Source: Ruegeria arenilitoris (GTDB lineage: Bacteria > Pseudomonadota > Alphaproteobacteria > Rhodobacterales > Rhodobacteraceae). From it: a stretch of DNA of 64,000 nucleotides. The stretch is taken from assembly GCF_013035425.1 (NCBI RefSeq), contig NZ_WQHX01000001.1, forward strand, positions 496,001-560,000. Direction: 5' to 3'. Below are positions 54,352 through 62,859 of the stretch, in pieces. Every line of letters begins with the position of its first letter. Position 1 is the stretch's first letter. The notes under the pieces were generated by a model. That model was not told where the DNA came from, searched no databases, and saw only the letters and a list, made by a program, of their open reading frames with translations. The position numbers were made by a program, and so were the translations under genes.

Positions 54352-54996
54352 TCACCTTGTTGCCGCAATAAAATCTTTAATTTTCCCGGAATCCTTGACG
54401 CCTGGCGCGCGTTCCACTCCGGAAGATACATCAACCTGCTGCGCCCCGGTCATTCGGATTGCTTCGGCAACATTGTCAGGCGTCAATCCCCCGGCCAGCA
54501 TCCACGGAAGCTGCCAGTATTTCCGCCCGGCCAACAGACGCCAGTCAAATGACAATCCGTTGCCACCAGGAAGCTCAGAACTTCGCGGTGGTTTTGCGTC
54601 GATTAACAGTTGGTCCGCCACCTCGGAATACCGGTCAATTGCAGCCAGATCTTCAGCTTCGGCTATCCCAATAGCTTTCATTACGGGCAGGCCAAAACTG
54701 TCTCGAACCTCAGAAACCCGCTGGGGCGTTTCCGTTCCGTGCAGTTGCCACATGTCCAGAGGTACCGAAGCGGCGATACGGTCTAGTTCTTCATCTGTCG
54801 CATTAACGGTAAGGGCGACTTTGGCGATGCCCGCTGGCACCAGATGGGCAAGTTCCGCAGCAGTAGAAAGCTCTAGATGCCGGGGGGATTTGGGGAAAAA
54901 TACAAACCCAACATAGCGCGCACCTGCCAACACCGCTGCATTCACATGTTCAGATGCAGTCAAACCGCAGATTTTTACGCGGATATCGCTTGCCAT
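54352..54996 (-). CDS. trpF: Phosphoribosylanthranilate isomerase
   Basis: TrpF converts phosphoribosylanthranilate to the enol-CdRP by an Amadori rearrangement. The 214-residue TIM barrel begins KICGLT (catalytic Cys in strand 1), contains [19 protein letters not shown] and ends with AGGLTPDNV and [15 protein letters not shown], where the second Asp/Ser-Ser region binds phosphate. It lies 10 bases downstream of lapA, in line with the rpsA-ihfB-lapA-trpF run, followed by a small gene and trpB. Confidence 0.95.
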
Positions 54997-55919: not shown

Positions 55920-57596
55920 TCAGTCGCCTGACTTCAGAGCTGCTCCCAAAATGTCGCCCAAAGACGCTCCCGAGTCGGAAGAACCGTACTGTTCCACGGC
56001 CTCTTTCTCTTCGGCGATCTCGCGCGCCTTGATCGACAGACCCAGTCGGCGGGTTTTGCTGTCAACATTGGTGACACGTACGTCGACCTTGTCGCCAACC
56101 GAGAAACGCTCGGGGCGCTGTTCTGCACGGTCACGTGACAGGTCTGAGCGACGAATGAAGGACTTCATGCCCTCATACTCAACCTCAATGCCACCTTCTT
56201 CGATTGCAGTGACTTCTACGGTCACGATTGAGCCACGCTTAACGCCGCCCACGGCTTCGGCAAACTTGTCACCACCAAGGGCTTTGATCGACAGAGAGAT
56301 GCGTTCTTTCTCTACGTCCACCTCAGACACAACCGCCTGAACTACGTCGCCTTTGCGGTAATTCTGGATTGCATCCTCGCCACGCTCGTCCCAAGACAAG
56401 TCCGAAAGGTGAACCATACCGTCGATGTCGCCTTCCAGGCCGATGAACAGCCCGAATTCGGTGATGTTCTTGACTTCGCCTTCGACCTGAGTTCCCTCGG
56501 GGTGTGTTTCTGCAAACACTTCCCACGGGTTGCGCTGGGTCTGTTTGAGGCCCAGAGAAACACGACGCTTTGTACCGTCGATTTCCAGAACCATGACATC
56601 TACTTCCTGGCTCGTAGAAACGATCTTGCCGGGGTGCACGTTTTTCTTGGTCCAAGACATCTCAGACACGTGAACCAGACCTTCGACTCCAGCTTCCAGC
56701 TCGACGAACGCACCATAGTCTGTGATGTTGGTCACGCGACCCTGATGTACCGATCCCAGCGGATATTTAGCAGCAACCAGATCCCATGGATCTTCCTGAA
56801 GCTGCTTCATTCCAAGGCTGATGCGATGGGTGTCTTTGTTGATCTTGATGACCTGAACCTTGATGGTTTCGCCGATCGTCAGGATTTCGGAAGGATGGTT
56901 CACACGGCGCCACGCCATGTCGGTTACGTGCAACAACCCATCAACGCCGCCCAAGTCAACAAATGCGCCGTATTCGGTGATGTTCTTGACGACACCTTCT
57001 ACGGTCTGACCCTCTGTCAGGTTACCAATAACTTCGGCACGCTGTTCGGCACGGGATTCTTCAAGGATTGCGCGGCGCGATACAACGATATTGCCGCGAC
57101 GGCGATCCATTTTAAGGATCTGGAACGGCTGTTTCAGTCCCATCAAAGGTCCTGCGTCACGAACAGGGCGCACGTCAACCTGCGAACCCGGCAGGAATGC
57201 AACGGCACCGCCCAGATCGACAGTGAAGCCGCCCTTGACCCGACCAAAGATTGCACCTTCGACGCGCTGGTCATCGGCATATGCTTTTTCAAGGCGGTCC
57301 CATGCCTCTTCACGGCGGGCCATCTCACGCGAGATGACAGCTTCGCCTTTGGCATTTTCAGCAGCGCGCAGGTAAACTTCGACCTCGTCACCGACTGCGA
57401 TTTCAGGGGCTTCGCCGGGATTTGCGAATTCTTTAAGATCAACGCGGCCTTCCATTTTATAGCCTACGTCGATGATGGCTTGGCCGGCTTCGATTGCCAG
57501 AACCTTGCCTTTGACAACAGAACCCTCTTCGGGCGTGTCCATTTCGAAGCTTTCATTCAGGAGGGCTTCGAATTCCTCCATGGATGCGTTAGCCAT
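55920..57596 (-). CDS. rpsA: Ribosomal protein S1
   Basis: S1 binds mRNA on the 30S subunit. From ATG 57596 (MANASMEEFEALLNESFEM) it is 558 residues, with six S1-type OB-fold repeats (from about residue 25), recognisable by recurring V-x-x-I-x-x-Y/F-G-A/L-F-V/I-x-L segments such as ITEYGAFVDLG, ITDYGAFVELE and ITEFGLFIGLE. The upstream in-frame reading to 57701 is an extension without similarity. A GC-rich terminator at 57712-57733 isolates it from the genes upstream, so it should have its own promoter. Confidence 0.95.
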   Translation of the reverse strand: MANASMEEFEALLNESFEMDTPEEGSVVKGKVLAIEAGQAIIDVGYKMEGRVDLKEFANPGEAPEIAVGDEVEVYLRAAENAKGEAVISREMARREEAWDRLEKAYADDQRVEGAIFGRVKGGFTVDLGGAVAFLPGSQVDVRPVRDAGPLMGLKQPFQILKMDRRRGNIVVSRRAILEESRAEQRAEVIGNLTEGQTVEGVVKNITEYGAFVDLGGVDGLLHVTDMAWRRVNHPSEILTIGETIKVQVIKINKDTHRISLGMKQLQEDPWDLVAAKYPLGSVHQGRVTNITDYGAFVELEAGVEGLVHVSEMSWTKKNVHPGKIVSTSQEVDVMVLEIDGTKRRVSLGLKQTQRNPWEVFAETHPEGTQVEGEVKNITEFGLFIGLEGDIDGMVHLSDLSWDERGEDAIQNYRKGDVVQAVVSEVDVEKERISLSIKALGGDKFAEAVGGVKRGSIVTVEVTAIEEGGIEVEYEGMKSFIRRSDLSRDRAEQRPERFSVGDKVDVRVTNVDSKTRRLGLSIKAREIAEEKEAVEQYGSSDSGASLGDILGAALKSGD

Positions 57597-57862: not shown

Positions 57863-58117
57863 TCAACTCTTTGGAGCCCAAACCTTGGTGTCCTGTTGCA
57901 ACATCGCCTGCTCGACCGCATTAAGACGACCAATCGCAGCGGCGGGATTGCGGCTGCCGCCAGTCTGCCTCCAGATTTTCAAAGCCGAAGCTGGACTCCA
58001 GGGCAGACAGGCTTGCGTCAACCACTGCCGTAAGGGCTGCGGTAGCGCATCATAGGCTTGCATCGGTGACGCCTGCCTACGACGACGTTTCAGCTCACTG
58101 CGAAGGTTGCGCGACAT
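57863..58117 (-). CDS. DUF6525-like small protein
   Basis: An 84-residue soluble basic protein beginning MSRNLRSELKRRRRQASP and containing YDALPQPLRQWLTQA and LPWSPASALKIWRQ, which I recognise as the DUF6525 family found in Rhodobacteraceae. Function unknown. The strongly basic N-terminus could bind nucleic acid, but this is not shown. It lies between the halogenase and rpsA with 177 bases upstream and a terminator downstream. ATG 58117 is the only reasonable start. Confidence 0.65.
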   Translation of the reverse strand: MSRNLRSELKRRRRQASPMQAYDALPQPLRQWLTQACLPWSPASALKIWRQTGGSRNPAAAIGRLNAVEQAMLQQDTKVWAPKS

Positions 58118-58294: not shown

Positions 58295-59980
58295 CTAGAA
58301 CAGTTGCAAATCCTTCGCGCCGCTTTGGATCTCAGCAAGATTCGGCATATTCAGGACCGCTAACGGTGCTGGTGCGGTGCCCGGCATTGCGGCGGCCGGT
58401 TTCATAGCAGCAGCCTTTCCAACAGCTGGTCGTTCCAGCTCACCCCGGATATCTCGCAGCAGCGTTTTGTGATCCGGCATCGTTTTGAGTATCTGCGCAA
58501 GATCCACTTTCGCGCCCTTCCACCAATGGAACCAAATCGGCTTCTTCAATGGCCGCACACGATCACGGATGCCGGTACCATAGCCAGTATCATAGACCTG
58601 CTTGCCTAAAAGAACGGTCTGATAAACGCGAAAATTGAATAGCGTTGCAAACTCGATATCATGCTCTACCGGCAAACGGTGCTGCCATAACTCTAGGTTT
58701 TCGGCCAACCGATCCGGTAACTTCATTTCCGTGCGCGCGTCGATCCAATATTGATCATCCGTACGGTTGCCCAATCGATAGTGCAGACAGATGAAATCCA
58801 GAACCTCGTCATAAAGCTTATTCATCTGCCTATTATATCTGGTTCGCAGGGACGGCTCGATATCGCGTGTGGGCAAGTGCTCGGCGAACCAGCGTATCGC
58901 GTGGTCAATCATGTGGATCGCTGTACTCTCTAGCGGCTCGATAAATCCGCCGGACAGACCTATCGCGACGCAATTCTTGACCCATGCGTTACGTACGCGC
59001 CCGATACGCATTGGGATCACACGCGGGGTTGCACCCTTGCCGCTGTCACCCAACCATTCGAGGTATTCGTCTGCCGCCTGATCATCCGTGCGATGTGCAG
59101 ATGAGAACACATAACCCGTGCCAACCCGGTTGTAGAGCGGTACTCGCCAAGTCCAACCTGCCCCTAGTGCGGTAGACCGAGTGACGCTTTCGATCTTCTC
59201 TGGATCTGGGTGCTCGATCTGCAGCGCCATGGCGCGGTCGTTTGGCAGATAGTCCGAGTAATCCATAAACGGTTCGCCCAGAGCTTGATTGATTATCAAT
59301 CCGCGGAATCCTGTGCAATCGATGACCATTTCAATGTCATGGCGACCCTTACGCTCCAGCATCAAATGGCTGACGTTGCCTTGTTCATCAAGTTCGACTG
59401 ATTGTACTTCGTCCTGGATGTGCTCAACACCGCGCTTAGTGCAGACTTTGGTGAGCATGCCGGCAAATTTTACAGCGTCTAAATGATATGCGTAGCCGAA
59501 CCGCTGTTCGAATTCAGGCTGCCCCAACTGCCGCGCCCCTTTGCATAGGCGGGCCAGATCGTCATGCGGAGAGATCGACTGAGTGAAGTCCCGATCTCCG
59601 TTGCCAAAGCGCAAAAAATACTCGGCGGCCTCCAACCCCTCTAACAGCTGTCCGTGTGCAAAAGGGTTTACATAATCAATTCGGTTTCCCTTTGGGTCTT
59701 TGTTCCAATTACAGAACTTTACACCTAGCTTGAACGACGCATTGGTTTCACGAAAAAAATCCTGCTCTGAAATACCCGCTTGGCGGAGTGTAACTGGCAT
59801 GCGCGGCACCGTGGCCTCACCAACACCAACAGTCGCAATATTAGGGCTTTCGATCAGACAGATGCGCGGACGGTCTTTGGGTGCAGAAGTGCGAGAAAAC
59901 ACCATGTCGAGGATCAGCGCACTCATCCAACCTGCAGTGCCACCCCCAACGATGGTGATTTTGCTCAAGCGATTATTCAT
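58295..59980 (-). CDS. Flavin-dependent tryptophan halogenase-family protein
   Basis: A 561-residue FAD-dependent halogenase. The FAD motif GGGTAGW is at 12-18, the catalytic Lys is K84 in ASFKLGVKF, the diagnostic halogenase motif W-x-W-x-(I/V)-P is W276-T-W278-R-V-P281, and EPLEST at 348-353 matches the FAD/chloride-side segment. All key residues are intact. ATG 59980 follows AGGGA; upstream codons are rejected. A Pro/Ala-rich C-terminal tail (about 525-550) is unusual. Substrate is not knowable; no flavin reductase, TonB receptor or SapC gene is adjacent. It would halogenate tryptophan or an indole, peptide or phenol. Confidence 0.88.
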   Translation of the reverse strand: MNNRLSKITIVGGGTAGWMSALILDMVFSRTSAPKDRPRICLIESPNIATVGVGEATVPRMPVTLRQAGISEQDFFRETNASFKLGVKFCNWNKDPKGNRIDYVNPFAHGQLLEGLEAAEYFLRFGNGDRDFTQSISPHDDLARLCKGARQLGQPEFEQRFGYAYHLDAVKFAGMLTKVCTKRGVEHIQDEVQSVELDEQGNVSHLMLERKGRHDIEMVIDCTGFRGLIINQALGEPFMDYSDYLPNDRAMALQIEHPDPEKIESVTRSTALGAGWTWRVPLYNRVGTGYVFSSAHRTDDQAADEYLEWLGDSGKGATPRVIPMRIGRVRNAWVKNCVAIGLSGGFIEPLESTAIHMIDHAIRWFAEHLPTRDIEPSLRTRYNRQMNKLYDEVLDFICLHYRLGNRTDDQYWIDARTEMKLPDRLAENLELWQHRLPVEHDIEFATLFNFRVYQTVLLGKQVYDTGYGTGIRDRVRPLKKPIWFHWWKGAKVDLAQILKTMPDHKTLLRDIRGELERPAVGKAAAMKPAAAMPGTAPAPLAVLNMPNLAEIQSGAKDLQLF

Positions 59981-60295
59981 TTGGTTCAGTCCCTGTTGAT
60001 TATTGGGGAGATGTACAAACATTCCCATATTTTGTTTTTAGACTGTATAGCAGAATTCTTTTTGGGTCCGAGGGGAAGAATTGCCGCTATCCTGCATCGA
60101 ACCAAGGACTGTGGCGCCCGGCCTACATGCTCTGCCAACCATAGGGATCTTTGGCCCTCGGGTACGAACCCTGTAACCTCGGGTCTGCAAATAACCCTAG
60201 GGCGCCTGATGCGAGCCCCGCCGCGTATATTCTAGACTATATTGGATTTCTTGAGTCTGCCTCACATCAGCTTCGGCATAAACTCGGGACGAGGC
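59981..60295. other. 315-base gap with degenerate tRNA-like remains
   Basis: No protein-coding frame is supported. On the minus strand, 60148 down to 60082 reads like a decayed tRNA (see separate entry), and a short perfect hairpin of GGGT/ACCC lies near 60160-60171. The remainder shows no recognisable signal; a promoter for the halogenase should lie close to 59985-60050. Confidence 0.45.
60082..60148 (-). pseudogene. Possible tRNA relic (tRNA-Thr-like 3' end)
   Basis: Reading the minus strand from 60148 to 60082 gives a D-arm-like GGTTGGCAGAGCA, then a T-loop-like GGTTCGATGC and an acceptor-like TAGCGGCA end, which matches the tail of tRNA-Thr genes I remember. The span is 67 bases, about six short of a tRNA, the missing bases falling where the D-stem 5' strand should be. 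Acceptor pairing is 5 of 7 and the anticodon stem does not pair. Non-functional if real; may be chance. Confidence 0.3.
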
Positions 60296-60811
60296 TTAGA
60301 TTTCCTCGCCTTTCTTAAGAAGCTCTTCAATCAGGGCGCGCTGCAGATCAAGGCTATCGCCCCCGCCGAATTCCGCAGCGCCGCCTGAATAAAGTGTACC
60401 GTAGGTTTTGGAGATGTTTACGGTCTGGGCCAGCCCCGAGATAAACTGCTCTTTTTTCAGAGCAGACAACGGGTGTATGTAAACAGCCCACAAGATACCA
60501 TTGGCGATCGCGTAACGCGCGTCCAGCGTGCTGTCGAAATTTGCTTGCATCATTCGCTGCAAATCCGCGGTTGATAAATCCGCGGCGCTGCCAATCGATA
60601 CCATCGCTCGCATCCTGTCTGCGGTGACGTCAGTGATCACTAGCACCGTCTGGTCCGACACCAATAACTCAAACCCCGGCCCAACTGGTTGGGCGTCGGG
60701 GTCCAACGCAAATATGATCTCACCCAGCCGTTTATAATCCATCGGAGGTTCAGCTTCCTGAGCAAGTGTACTGCCAGCCAAAAGAATAAGCGCCAGTGCG
60801 TACCGGATCAT
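60296..60811 (-). CDS. Secreted protein of unknown function
   Basis: A 171-residue protein. From ATG 60811 it starts with a signal peptide (MIRYALALILLAGSTLAQ, cleavage after about A17 or Q18) and continues with an alternating alpha/beta pattern: DYKRLGEIIFALD, GFELLVSDQTVLVITDV, then a helical stretch and an acidic C-terminus. The fold looks like YbjN/CesT-type domains, but this is only a resemblance. It lies 87 bases downstream of cmk and about 315 bases before the halogenase start on the same strand. Function unknown. Confidence 0.6.
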   Translation of the reverse strand: MIRYALALILLAGSTLAQEAEPPMDYKRLGEIIFALDPDAQPVGPGFELLVSDQTVLVITDVTADRMRAMVSIGSAADLSTADLQRMMQANFDSTLDARYAIANGILWAVYIHPLSALKKEQFISGLAQTVNISKTYGTLYSGGAAEFGGGDSLDLQRALIEELLKKGEEI

Positions 60812-60898: not shown

Positions 60899-61516
60899 TT
60901 ACCGAACTGTTGGTAGCTTTCGTTCTACGATTGCCACAGCTTGCGCAAGCGCCTCTTCAATACTCAAACTCGAAGTATCAAGCATACTTGCGTCCTTGGC
61001 TGGCTTCATCGGAGCGGTACTGCGTTGGGCGTCACGCGCATCACGTTCCTTGACGTCGGTCAGCACCTGATCGCGCGTCACGTCTGCACCTTTGGCTTTA
61101 AGTTCAAGAAAACGCCGTTCGGCGCGGACCTTGGCGCTGGCAGTCACAAACAATTTAACCTCGGCTTTGGGACAAATTACCGTTCCGATGTCGCGTCCAT
61201 CCAACACAGCCCCACCTGCCCTGCAGGCAAATGCGCGTTGAAAATCAACCAGTGCGGACCGAACTTCTGGTATGACTGCCACCTTCGATGCTGCTTGTGC
61301 TATTTCAGCTGTGCGCAGATCCCCTTGTTCAAGTTCTTCGGCTTTCAGAGCTTTGGCGGCCTCGGCGGCTGGTGTGCCATCAAGAGTACGCCTTCCAACT
61401 GCGCGATACAGCAACCCTGTGTCCAGATGTGAAAACCCAAAGCGCTCCGCTATGCCCTTTGATATTGTCCCCTTGCCGGCTGCAGCTGGACCGTCGATCG
61501 CGACAGTGAACCTCAT
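60899..61516 (-). CDS. cmk: Cytidylate kinase
   Basis: Cmk phosphorylates CMP and dCMP using ATP. The 205-residue protein starts with the P-loop GPAAAGKGT (residues 9-17), contains the DGRDIGT segment (CMP-binding) and a lid with ARDAQRS. ATG 61516 overlaps the aroA stop as ATGA (61513-61516), so aroA and cmk are translationally coupled. In related genomes I expect rpsA immediately downstream of cmk; here about 3.2 kb of other genes intervene. Confidence 0.95.
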
Positions 61517-62859
61517 GTGCGTTCGACCCTGGCACCCAAACCTGCCATCAGAGGCTCAAAAATCGGAAATGAGGTGGCAATTGGCCCACCGTCATCCACC
61601 GAAACTTCAACTTTCGCACCCATACCCAGCACCATAAAGGACATGGCTATGCGATGATCAAGGAAACTCTCGCATACACCGCCGCCTGGCACACCACCAA
61701 TACCCAACCCTTCGACCGACCACCAATCTTCACCTTCCTCTACTGCGACACCATTAGCACGCAAACCGCGCGCCATAGCGTCGATTCGGTCACTTTCTTT
61801 GACCCGCAACTCTCGCACCCCGCCCATGAGCGTGGTTCCGACGGCGTTTGCAGCGACCACGGACAGCACGGGGTACTCATCTATCATCGACGCAGCACGT
61901 TCAGGCGGTACTTTGATACCCTTCATTTCAGGTGAATACCGGGCTCTGAGGTCGGCGACGGGTTCGCCGCCTTCTTCGCGTTCATTTTCATAGGTCAAAT
62001 CAGCGCCCATTTCGCGCAAAGTAGTAAACAAGCCGGCTCGCGTTGGGTTCAAGCCAATACCTGGAACCAAAACATCTGAACCGGGCGTGATCAACGCAGC
62101 ACAAACCGGGAAGGCTGCACTGGACGGATCACGTGGTACCGCGATGATCTGCGGCTTAAGTTCTGGCTGGCCAGTCAAGGTAATCACATGGCCTTGGTCT
62201 GTGTCCTCTACCGTGATTTCTGCCCCAAACCCGGCTAACATCCGCTCTGAATGATCACGAGTGGCTTCTTTTTCGATTACGACGGTTTTACCAGGCGCAT
62301 TCAAACCCGCCAGCAAAACGGCTGATTTGACTTGAGCCGACGGCACTGGAACCTCGTATCGAACTGGGATCGGATCATTGGCACCAACGATAGTCATCGG
62401 CAACCGTCCAGCAGAACGCCCGACAGATTGCGCCCCGAACAGCGCTAGTGGATCGGTAACACGCGCCATTGGACGCTTATTCAAACTCGCGTCACCAGTA
62501 AAGGTTGCCGTAATTGGCGAGGTGGCCATAGCACCCATGATCAGACGCACTCCAGTTCCAGAGTTGCCACAATCAATCACCTGATCCGGTTCGGCAAAGC
62601 CGCCTACACCAACACCATGAACCGTCCATTCACCACCGCCGAGATCCGTTACCTCAGCCCCGAAAGCTCGCATCGCCTTAGCGGTATCCAGAACATCCTC
62701 GCCCTCCAACAATCCAGATATCCGGGTTTCGCCCACTGCCATAGCACCTAAAATCAGCGATCTGTGCGAAATCGACTTGTCCCCGGGTACTTCGGCTGTG
62801 CCGTTCAGCGGTCCGCAGGGATGCGAAGTCATCGGTATGGGCGTGCCTTGTCCGGACAT
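61513..62859 (-). CDS. aroA: 3-Phosphoshikimate 1-carboxyvinyltransferase (class II EPSP synthase)
   Basis: AroA makes EPSP in the shikimate pathway from shikimate 3-phosphate and PEP. All four class II motifs are present: GDKS, SAQVK, RDHSE and NPTR; the segment [10 protein letters not shown] is also class II-like. Where the CP4 enzyme has Ala in NAATG, this protein has NSGTG with Gly. It is 448 residues; ATG 62859 follows an AAGGAG ribosome binding site. It leads the aroA-cmk unit. Confidence 0.95.

Follow-up and report, generated by a model that had tools for sequence, protein, structure and literature searches.

A free-standing flavin-dependent halogenase with an upstream leader and an invariant C-terminal end in the cmk-rpsA interval of Ruegeria

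Halogenases are usually interpreted from the gene cluster that surrounds them. In a 64,000-nt stretch of the Ruegeria arenilitoris genome (contig NZ_WQHX01000001.1, positions 496,001 to 560,000; hereafter the window) a gene for a flavin-dependent halogenase lies between cmk and rpsA (Table 1), which raises the questions of how it came to lie there and on what its product might act. A sequence-only reading of the window had proposed that the halogenase arrived with its two flanking genes in a ~3.2-kb insertion, that it has no local partner, and that it lies near tryptophan genes.

Table 1. Features of the window around the halogenase gene (positions are those of the window).
Feature	Position	Strand	Basis or remark
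trpF	54352..54996	-	present in the stretch fetched from each of the 54 genomes
rpsA, S1-domain protein (ribosomal protein S1)	55920..57596	-	downstream border of the hotspot
DUF6525 gene (PF20135, 93.5 bits)	57863..58117	-	in the interval in 32/54 genomes
Flavin-dependent halogenase gene (PF04820), 561 aa	58295..59980	-	ORF and profile match
Site of the 79-nt leader with likely hairpin; window copy degenerate (18 bits, E 0.2)	59988..60067	-	leader model
Site aligned with the orthologs' -10-like TATAGT; reads AATTCT in the window	60077..60082	-	alignment
171-aa protein with a signal-like start; window copy without a Pfam family	60296..60811	-	in the interval in 44/54 genomes
cmk, cytidylate kinase	60899..61516	-	upstream border of the hotspot
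aroA, EPSP synthase	61513..62859	-	Pfam scan

The halogenase gene

Translation of the reading frame gave 561 residues and a stop with no interruption, and in a Pfam scan the sole family at E-values up to 0.001 was PF04820 (Trp_halogenase), which scored 440 bits against a cut-off of 21 and was covered from position 1 to 445 of 458. An alternative in-frame ATG 48 bases upstream would give a protein of 577 residues; we placed the start at the ATG of 59980, where the aligned orthologs begin and where an AGGGA lies 5' of the ATG. The FAD-binding GxGxxG, the WxWxxP and the Lys and Glu that are known catalytic residues of halogenases were all present, with GGGTAGW at residues 12-18, the lysine at K84, WTWRVP at 276-281 and EPLEST at 348-353; translation, Pfam and alignment thus bear out the complete enzyme described from the sequence. 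K84, W276, W278 and E348 were identical in all 46 orthologs of the genus, and in a 40-sequence alignment these four and the stretch G12-W18 were invariant.

The GC content of the halogenase stretch was unremarkable (0.50-0.56 in 500-base windows, 0.49-0.57 around it). A crude count of codon differences from near neighbours gave N/S values of 0.05-0.34 in 46 lineages, a range that shows, at the level of codons, a gene kept under purifying selection. Relaxed selection on the window copy was not seen, its value (0.09) being among the lower ones. Orthologs in two genomes (G441, C13 309333-311017; G130, C49 3075-4746) were found in two pieces, and three further orthologs or relatives (G380, G372 and G246) were also in two pieces or had one in-frame stop, so that in all five the gene is broken or misassembled.

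The cmk-rpsA interval in the genus

With the rpsA start assigned at MANAS, the gap between cmk and rpsA in the window measures 3303 bp and holds the 171-aa gene, the halogenase and the DUF6525 gene; coordinates and Pfam scan agree with the earlier description of a halogenase flanked by a secreted gene and DUF6525. The order continues downstream from DUF6525 through rpsA, ihfB and lapA to trpF. We read the same interval in all members of a genus set of 54 genomes, the window's own included, where the gap ranged from 280 to 5732 bp and fell below 500 bp in only 3 of the 54, contrary to the expectation that it would be compact in relatives. The most frequent gene in the interval was the 171-aa gene (44 genomes), followed by a YHS-domain gene (41), the halogenase (36), DUF6525 (32) and a sulfatase gene (13), and wherever these modules occurred their order was constant (cmk-YHS-secreted-halogenase-sulfatase-DUF6525-rpsA). 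Among the 18 genomes with no halogenase in this slot, the 171-aa gene was kept in 12 and DUF6525 in 8. Judged by its gene content, the interval is a modular hotspot rather than the site of one three-gene insertion.

Full-length orthologs, 88-95% identical to the window protein, were found in 46 of the 54 genomes (47 if weak matches in G012 are counted); in 36 genomes the gene occupied the cmk-rpsA slot, in 10 it lay elsewhere and in 8 it was absent. With the halogenase occupying this slot in 35 of 53 relatives, and the two flanking genes mostly there as well, the idea of an insertion largely fails and a single recent one is refuted; what survives of it is that the halogenase comes and goes alone (10 of 46 elsewhere, 8 of 54 absent). 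Among named records with related halogenase loci, 38 of 53 were titled Ruegeria.

Two neighbours deserve separate mention. The sulfatase gene (PF00884; L007 7978-9723, and 12 further genomes) lies in the interval on the strand opposite to the halogenase, and two of its 13 carriers (G012 and G024) have no halogenase there. The 171-aa protein had weak similarity to CesT (Tir chaperone) in 3 of 20 orthologs, at best with E 0.00036, and none for the window copy; a structure-based identity was dropped, the model (pLDDT 58.3) being too poor for a search.

Local partners

A scan of nine proteins, spanning trpF to aroA, turned up no flavin reductase, TonB receptor or SapC, so the description of the halogenase as stand-alone holds over this neighbourhood. 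The genome has five PF01613 matches above cut-off, and FADH2 could come from any of these proteins, encoded elsewhere. In 20 loci of the group of halogenases at 44-61% identity, compared by mechanical ORF calls and blastp clusters, no other family occurred in more than three, and the constant neighbours in the genus slot are present in its absence too; these 20 loci and the genus slot thus gave no conserved neighbouring biosynthetic genes that would mark the halogenase of a biosynthetic gene cluster. One relocated copy (G052) has upstream of it, in the same orientation, a PF00724 (NADH:flavin oxidoreductase) gene (L010 4336-5439).

Relocation and exchange

For the ten relocated copies, the 600 bp to either side were set against the flanking sequence of other orthologs. 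Homology covered the reading frame and a median of 66-137 bp upstream in eight (the exceptions being G020, with none, and G042, with 36 bp in one match), and downstream there was none in eight and a single match in two. As homology stops at the reading frame and a short upstream stretch, the moving unit is the gene together with its own promoter and leader. The neighbours of the relocated copies were varied metabolic, regulatory and transport genes and, once, a ribosomal S4 gene; the mobile elements beside them came to one integrase-core gene, at L019 (ten neighbours scanned). Carriage of the close clade by plasmids or phages was not found: no copy reached 60% identity among 78 matching records of a plasmid collection or 58 of a phage collection, two collections that may lack records close to the genome of the window.

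Comparison with 18 genomes of other genera (aroA not found in two) points to exchange. Ten of them carry a halogenase 85-92% identical to the window's (in two pieces in G441 and G130), a range overlapping the 88-95% seen within the genus, whereas their aroA drops to 78-89%; six, with aroA at 74-83%, have a halogenase of a 56-60% type. Across the 36 slot genomes, halogenase distances followed aroA distances only very weakly, with a Mantel r of 0.17 (p 0.066). For cmk, YHS, secreted gene, sulfatase and DUF6525 the r with aroA was 0.45-0.88, some of these on fewer genomes, and for trpF and ihfB it was only moderate (0.43 and 0.52). In trees read without support values, the window's sister by core genes (G031) has its halogenase elsewhere, and its sister by halogenase (G044) belongs to a distant core lineage. 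Few tree splits were common throughout, core genes included (10 of 33 for halogenase and aroA, 11 for aroA and cmk, 7 for aroA and rpoB), so it is the distances and the relocated copies, and not the tree topology, that carry the case for exchange.

These distances and tree positions weigh against a mainly vertical history, in which 8 genomes would have lost an ancestral slot gene and 10 would have relocated it internally, exchange between lineages being slight. Such a history would suit the constant module order and a halogenase split sharing no lower than that between core genes. It would also suit a MAG of another genus (L044 3190-4878) that has a halogenase in the same cmk-rpsA slot despite a cmk only 64% identical, from which the slot is either older than the genus or was refilled. 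Taking both sides together, we find it somewhat unlikely, and regard exchange of the halogenase between lineages as likely, not proven. One apparent outlier is a record titled Nocardioides marinus (L032, JAHVJD010000006.1) with a 90% identical halogenase; the genes downstream of it group with Ruegeria conchae (L009) genes, so a wrong label or a mixed record is probable.

The leader

A 79-nt leader before the halogenase start is common to 39 of the 46 genus orthologs, preceded in orthologs by a -10-like element that mostly reads TATAGT. It was found once per genome and directly 5' of the halogenase, in 32 of 36 slot genomes, 7 of 10 with a relocated gene and 0 of 8 gene-less genomes, in a search with stricter filters that lose weak matches. 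A regulon was rejected, because a strong leader stood only before the halogenase and 15 further matches (E 0.02-0.94) were taken as chance. Eleven halogenase copies from other genera or unplaced MAGs had no such leader. Rfam gave 0 matches at E-values up to 1 in ten leader-bearing loci and, over the window region, a single one (MIR444 at E 3), which lies inside DUF6525 and looks like chance. Parts of the leader's own promoter and ribosome-binding region (GGGAAAGCTGCTATA and AAGCCAAxAGGGA) recur within it, and it may therefore have arisen by tandem duplication.

The alignment behind the leader model includes 34 of the 39 sequences (outside it are G010, G034, G035, G037 and G039). Pairing in a fold of three stacked helices was tallied over 34 leaders, a set from which L027, the window copy, four genomes outside the set and the leaderless orthologs were out. 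In this fold 90.5% of cells paired against 87.7% in shuffles, and 16 cells were changed on both sides against 5.1, neither value being reached in any of 500 shuffles. Two other counts were weaker: pairs with a both-side change numbered 5 against 2.9 (as high in 28 of 500), and additional pair types numbered 19 against 17.3 (84 of 500). When partners were slid by 1-3 columns, 40.5-55.3% of cells paired, yet 4-7 pairs showed a both-side change. Fitting 48 matches, some of them weak, to the model produced an alignment that by its making leans to structure; there, 8 such pairs were counted where shuffles gave 3.5 (1 of 500), and 25 cells where shuffles gave 6.3. RNAalifold on 36 sequences returned one of the three helices and a CCC-GGG pairing to the Shine-Dalgarno region, and single folds of eight leaders had z-scores from -1.1 (the window) to -4.1. 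A conserved hairpin in the leader is likely, not proven, and we report the hairpin leader, with some covariation, as new here. A test for hiding of the Shine-Dalgarno sequence by the leader showed no effect: the unpaired probability of that sequence averaged 0.31, against 0.34 in dinucleotide-shuffled leaders, and was lower than the mean of the shuffles for 27 of the 46 orthologs in the genus and 6 of 10 from outside it (with poor starts chosen by the -10 finder in a few rows, e.g., G000 and G032).

The window copy departs from this pattern. Its leader scores 18 bits against 48-96 in the 39 genomes, and AATTCT stands where orthologs have TATAGT, as would be expected if an intact reading frame sat behind a decayed control region and were poorly or no longer expressed. 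Six other orthologs also have no leader, and the low N/S of the window copy speaks for continued selection, so we think poor or lost expression here rather unlikely.

The C-terminal tail

The structure model of the halogenase (mean pLDDT 87.2, from 40 aligned sequences) has a folded part of about residues 1-514 and a low-confidence tail from about 518, with pLDDT below 50 at 518-547 and 556-561. KDLQLF nonetheless forms the C-terminal end in 46 of 46 genus orthologs and in all ten examined from other genera, and we report this invariant end of a predicted disordered tail as new here. In relatives a hydrophobic residue followed by L or F comes after a linker of varying length: the last two residues were [LIMV][LF] in 24 of 29 relatives grouped as 45-60% identical (a count that includes L125, in which a stop interrupts the frame) and in none of 12 at a greater distance, or in 24 of 33 and 0 of 8 if L169-L172 (44-46% identical) are moved to the nearer group. 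A PTVxMPG-like motif stands in the linker of 44 of 46 genus orthologs, the window copy reading PAAAMPG, and a looser pattern occurred in 7 of 10 other-genus copies, 15 of 29 of the 45-60% group and 0 of 12 distant relatives.

A disordered linker with a fixed end, as modelled, would suit docking or a turnover signal. Docking could mean that the tail binds a partner presenting a peptide, a carrier-bound aromatic or a tryptophan within a protein, MibH with its lanthipeptide substrate being a parallel, and the conservation of an end with such low pLDDT, together with the recurrence of [LIMV][LF] in relatives, is what such a bound-substrate enzyme might show. Against it, no peptide, carrier or other gene recurs in more than three of the 20 loci, and the tail could equally serve turnover. 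Nor was a tail common to other proteins of the genome recognised by two narrow patterns: DLQLF-stop matched three times (in the halogenase itself, where a short ORF ends, and once without a true stop), and PTVxMPG had none, a null that says little because the window's own tail fails that pattern too. We judge action on a bound substrate quite improbable.

Fold, motifs and substrate

Foldseek and VIA-align placed the model among tryptophan halogenases, and the best-matching solved sequences and folds were halogenases (Z scores: PyrH 2wet 45.9, AbeH 45.2, Tar14 44.4, BrvH 6frl 41.0, MibH 38.1, VirX1 36.9). Among the closest were AbeH, Tar14, PyrH and other tryptophan 5-/6-halogenases at 32-37% identity; Tar14, AbeH, Th-Hal and SttH read EPLESTGI where the window halogenase has EPLESTAI. 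A tryptophan halogenase of Shewanella frigidimarina (2pyx), for which we know of no tested function, aligned over residues 3-480 at 32-33% identity and also has no Trp4 motif. The Brevundimonas-like BrvH has the same fold (rmsd 2.0 over 475 residues) with 35% identity in the structural alignment, and shares with the window halogenase the catalytic Lys and Glu and the missing loop residues that bind the tryptophan amino and carboxyl groups (available part of PMC5945002).

The available part of PMC8269204 defines the Trp motifs: group A and B tryptophan halogenases carry Trp4, group B also carries Trp3, and group C is without Trp4. By this partial account AbeH, Tar14, PyrH and their like have both Trp3 and Trp4, and the window halogenase has neither. 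In place of Trp4 (YYxxF... in group A, (Y/H)YHG(L/F)(P/E)PYS in group B) it reads FATLFNFRVYQ when aligned with Tar14 and AbeH, and it has F157 and R160 opposite the glutamines of the AbeH Trp3 motif (QxxQ or QxxxQ before FPYAYHF). Genus orthologs keep the Trp4 stretch stable: position 446 is T in 45 of them and S in one, and position 452 is V in all 46. On these alignments, then, the window halogenase lacks the residues with which classical enzymes hold tryptophan by its amino and carboxyl groups. With Trp1 (ATVPRM) and Trp2 (NPFAH) present and Trp4 absent, the enzyme fits group C by motifs alone. Two group members that likewise have no Trp4 come close in the motifs printed in the available part of PMC8269204, a likeness of printed motifs alone: MHal3 has ATVPGM for Trp1 and MHal2 has NPFQP for Trp2.

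According to the same part of that paper, MHal2-4, which are without Trp4, halogenate indole at C3, do not convert tryptophan and are more reactive with bromide; BrvH likewise halogenates indole and leaves tryptophan unconverted (available part of PMC5945002). Absence of Trp4 does not in itself fix the substrate, because group C is mixed: its list in the available part of PMC8269204 includes KrmI, which accepts tryptophan and not indole, and MibH, which acts on a lanthipeptide, and MHal1 was inactive even on indole. By analogy, we infer that the expected substrate would be a small free aromatic, probably brominated.

Nearness to the tryptophan genes, the remaining element of the sequence-only reading, carries little weight, because ihfB and trpF lie in the fetched cmk-rpsA stretch of all 54 genomes, halogenase or not, and Trp3 and Trp4 are missing. 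That a tryptophan halogenase entered a compact cmk-rpsA interval in a single recent insertion and is functionally tied to those genes is suggested by the family name of PF04820, by trpF about 3.3 kb away and by KrmI (available part of PMC8269204), but is very improbable given the same slot in 36 of 54 genomes, the gap below 500 bp in only 3, the trpF present regardless of the halogenase and the two absent motifs.

Conclusions

The FAD motif, the Lys and Glu, a confident fold model, purifying selection, the absence of Trp3 and Trp4 and the lack of any conserved neighbour in the loci compared are shown here, and on this basis the gene probably encodes a free-standing two-component flavin-dependent halogenase of group C, an autonomous accessory unit at home in the cmk-rpsA hotspot. 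In this enzyme a general flavin reductase would supply FADH2 in trans, the flavin peroxide would turn bromide or chloride into hypohalite, and the hypohalite would reach K84 and halogenate an electron-rich aromatic, most likely a small and free one such as indole or phenol, with bromide the likelier halide at sea. Promoter, leader and reading frame would be lost, moved or exchanged between lineages as a unit. A bolder version, in which a mobile promoter, RNA leader and enzyme form a partnerless single-gene halogenase unit of a new type, the tail docking a partner in trans, the leader controlling expression and the product a brominated diffusible aromatic, is speculative and on balance unlikely; if true, the genus would hold a freely exchanged, genus-wide brominating enzyme, whose substrate may perhaps be a signal or a competitor's compound.

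In the open-licence literature we found no account of the halogenase, its leader or its tail in titles and abstract starts among the matches listed. The available part of PMC3784947 describes 107 sponge isolates, six of them Ruegeria, with a halogenase PCR product from a Psychrobacter only, and in the available parts of PMC13101523 and PMC7333567 halogenases are mentioned only in other bacteria. The enzyme family is a known one; the distinctive features are its lone, genus-wide form, the leader and the tail.

Here, then, is a halogenase without a recognisable cluster in the loci examined that is yet found in 46 of 54 genomes of a marine genus and kept under selection. The leader and the invariant C-terminal peptide offer two handles, on its regulation and on its partner. 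If bromoindoles or similar compounds are made, this would be the gene for a widespread marine source of organohalogens, possibly of chemical signals.
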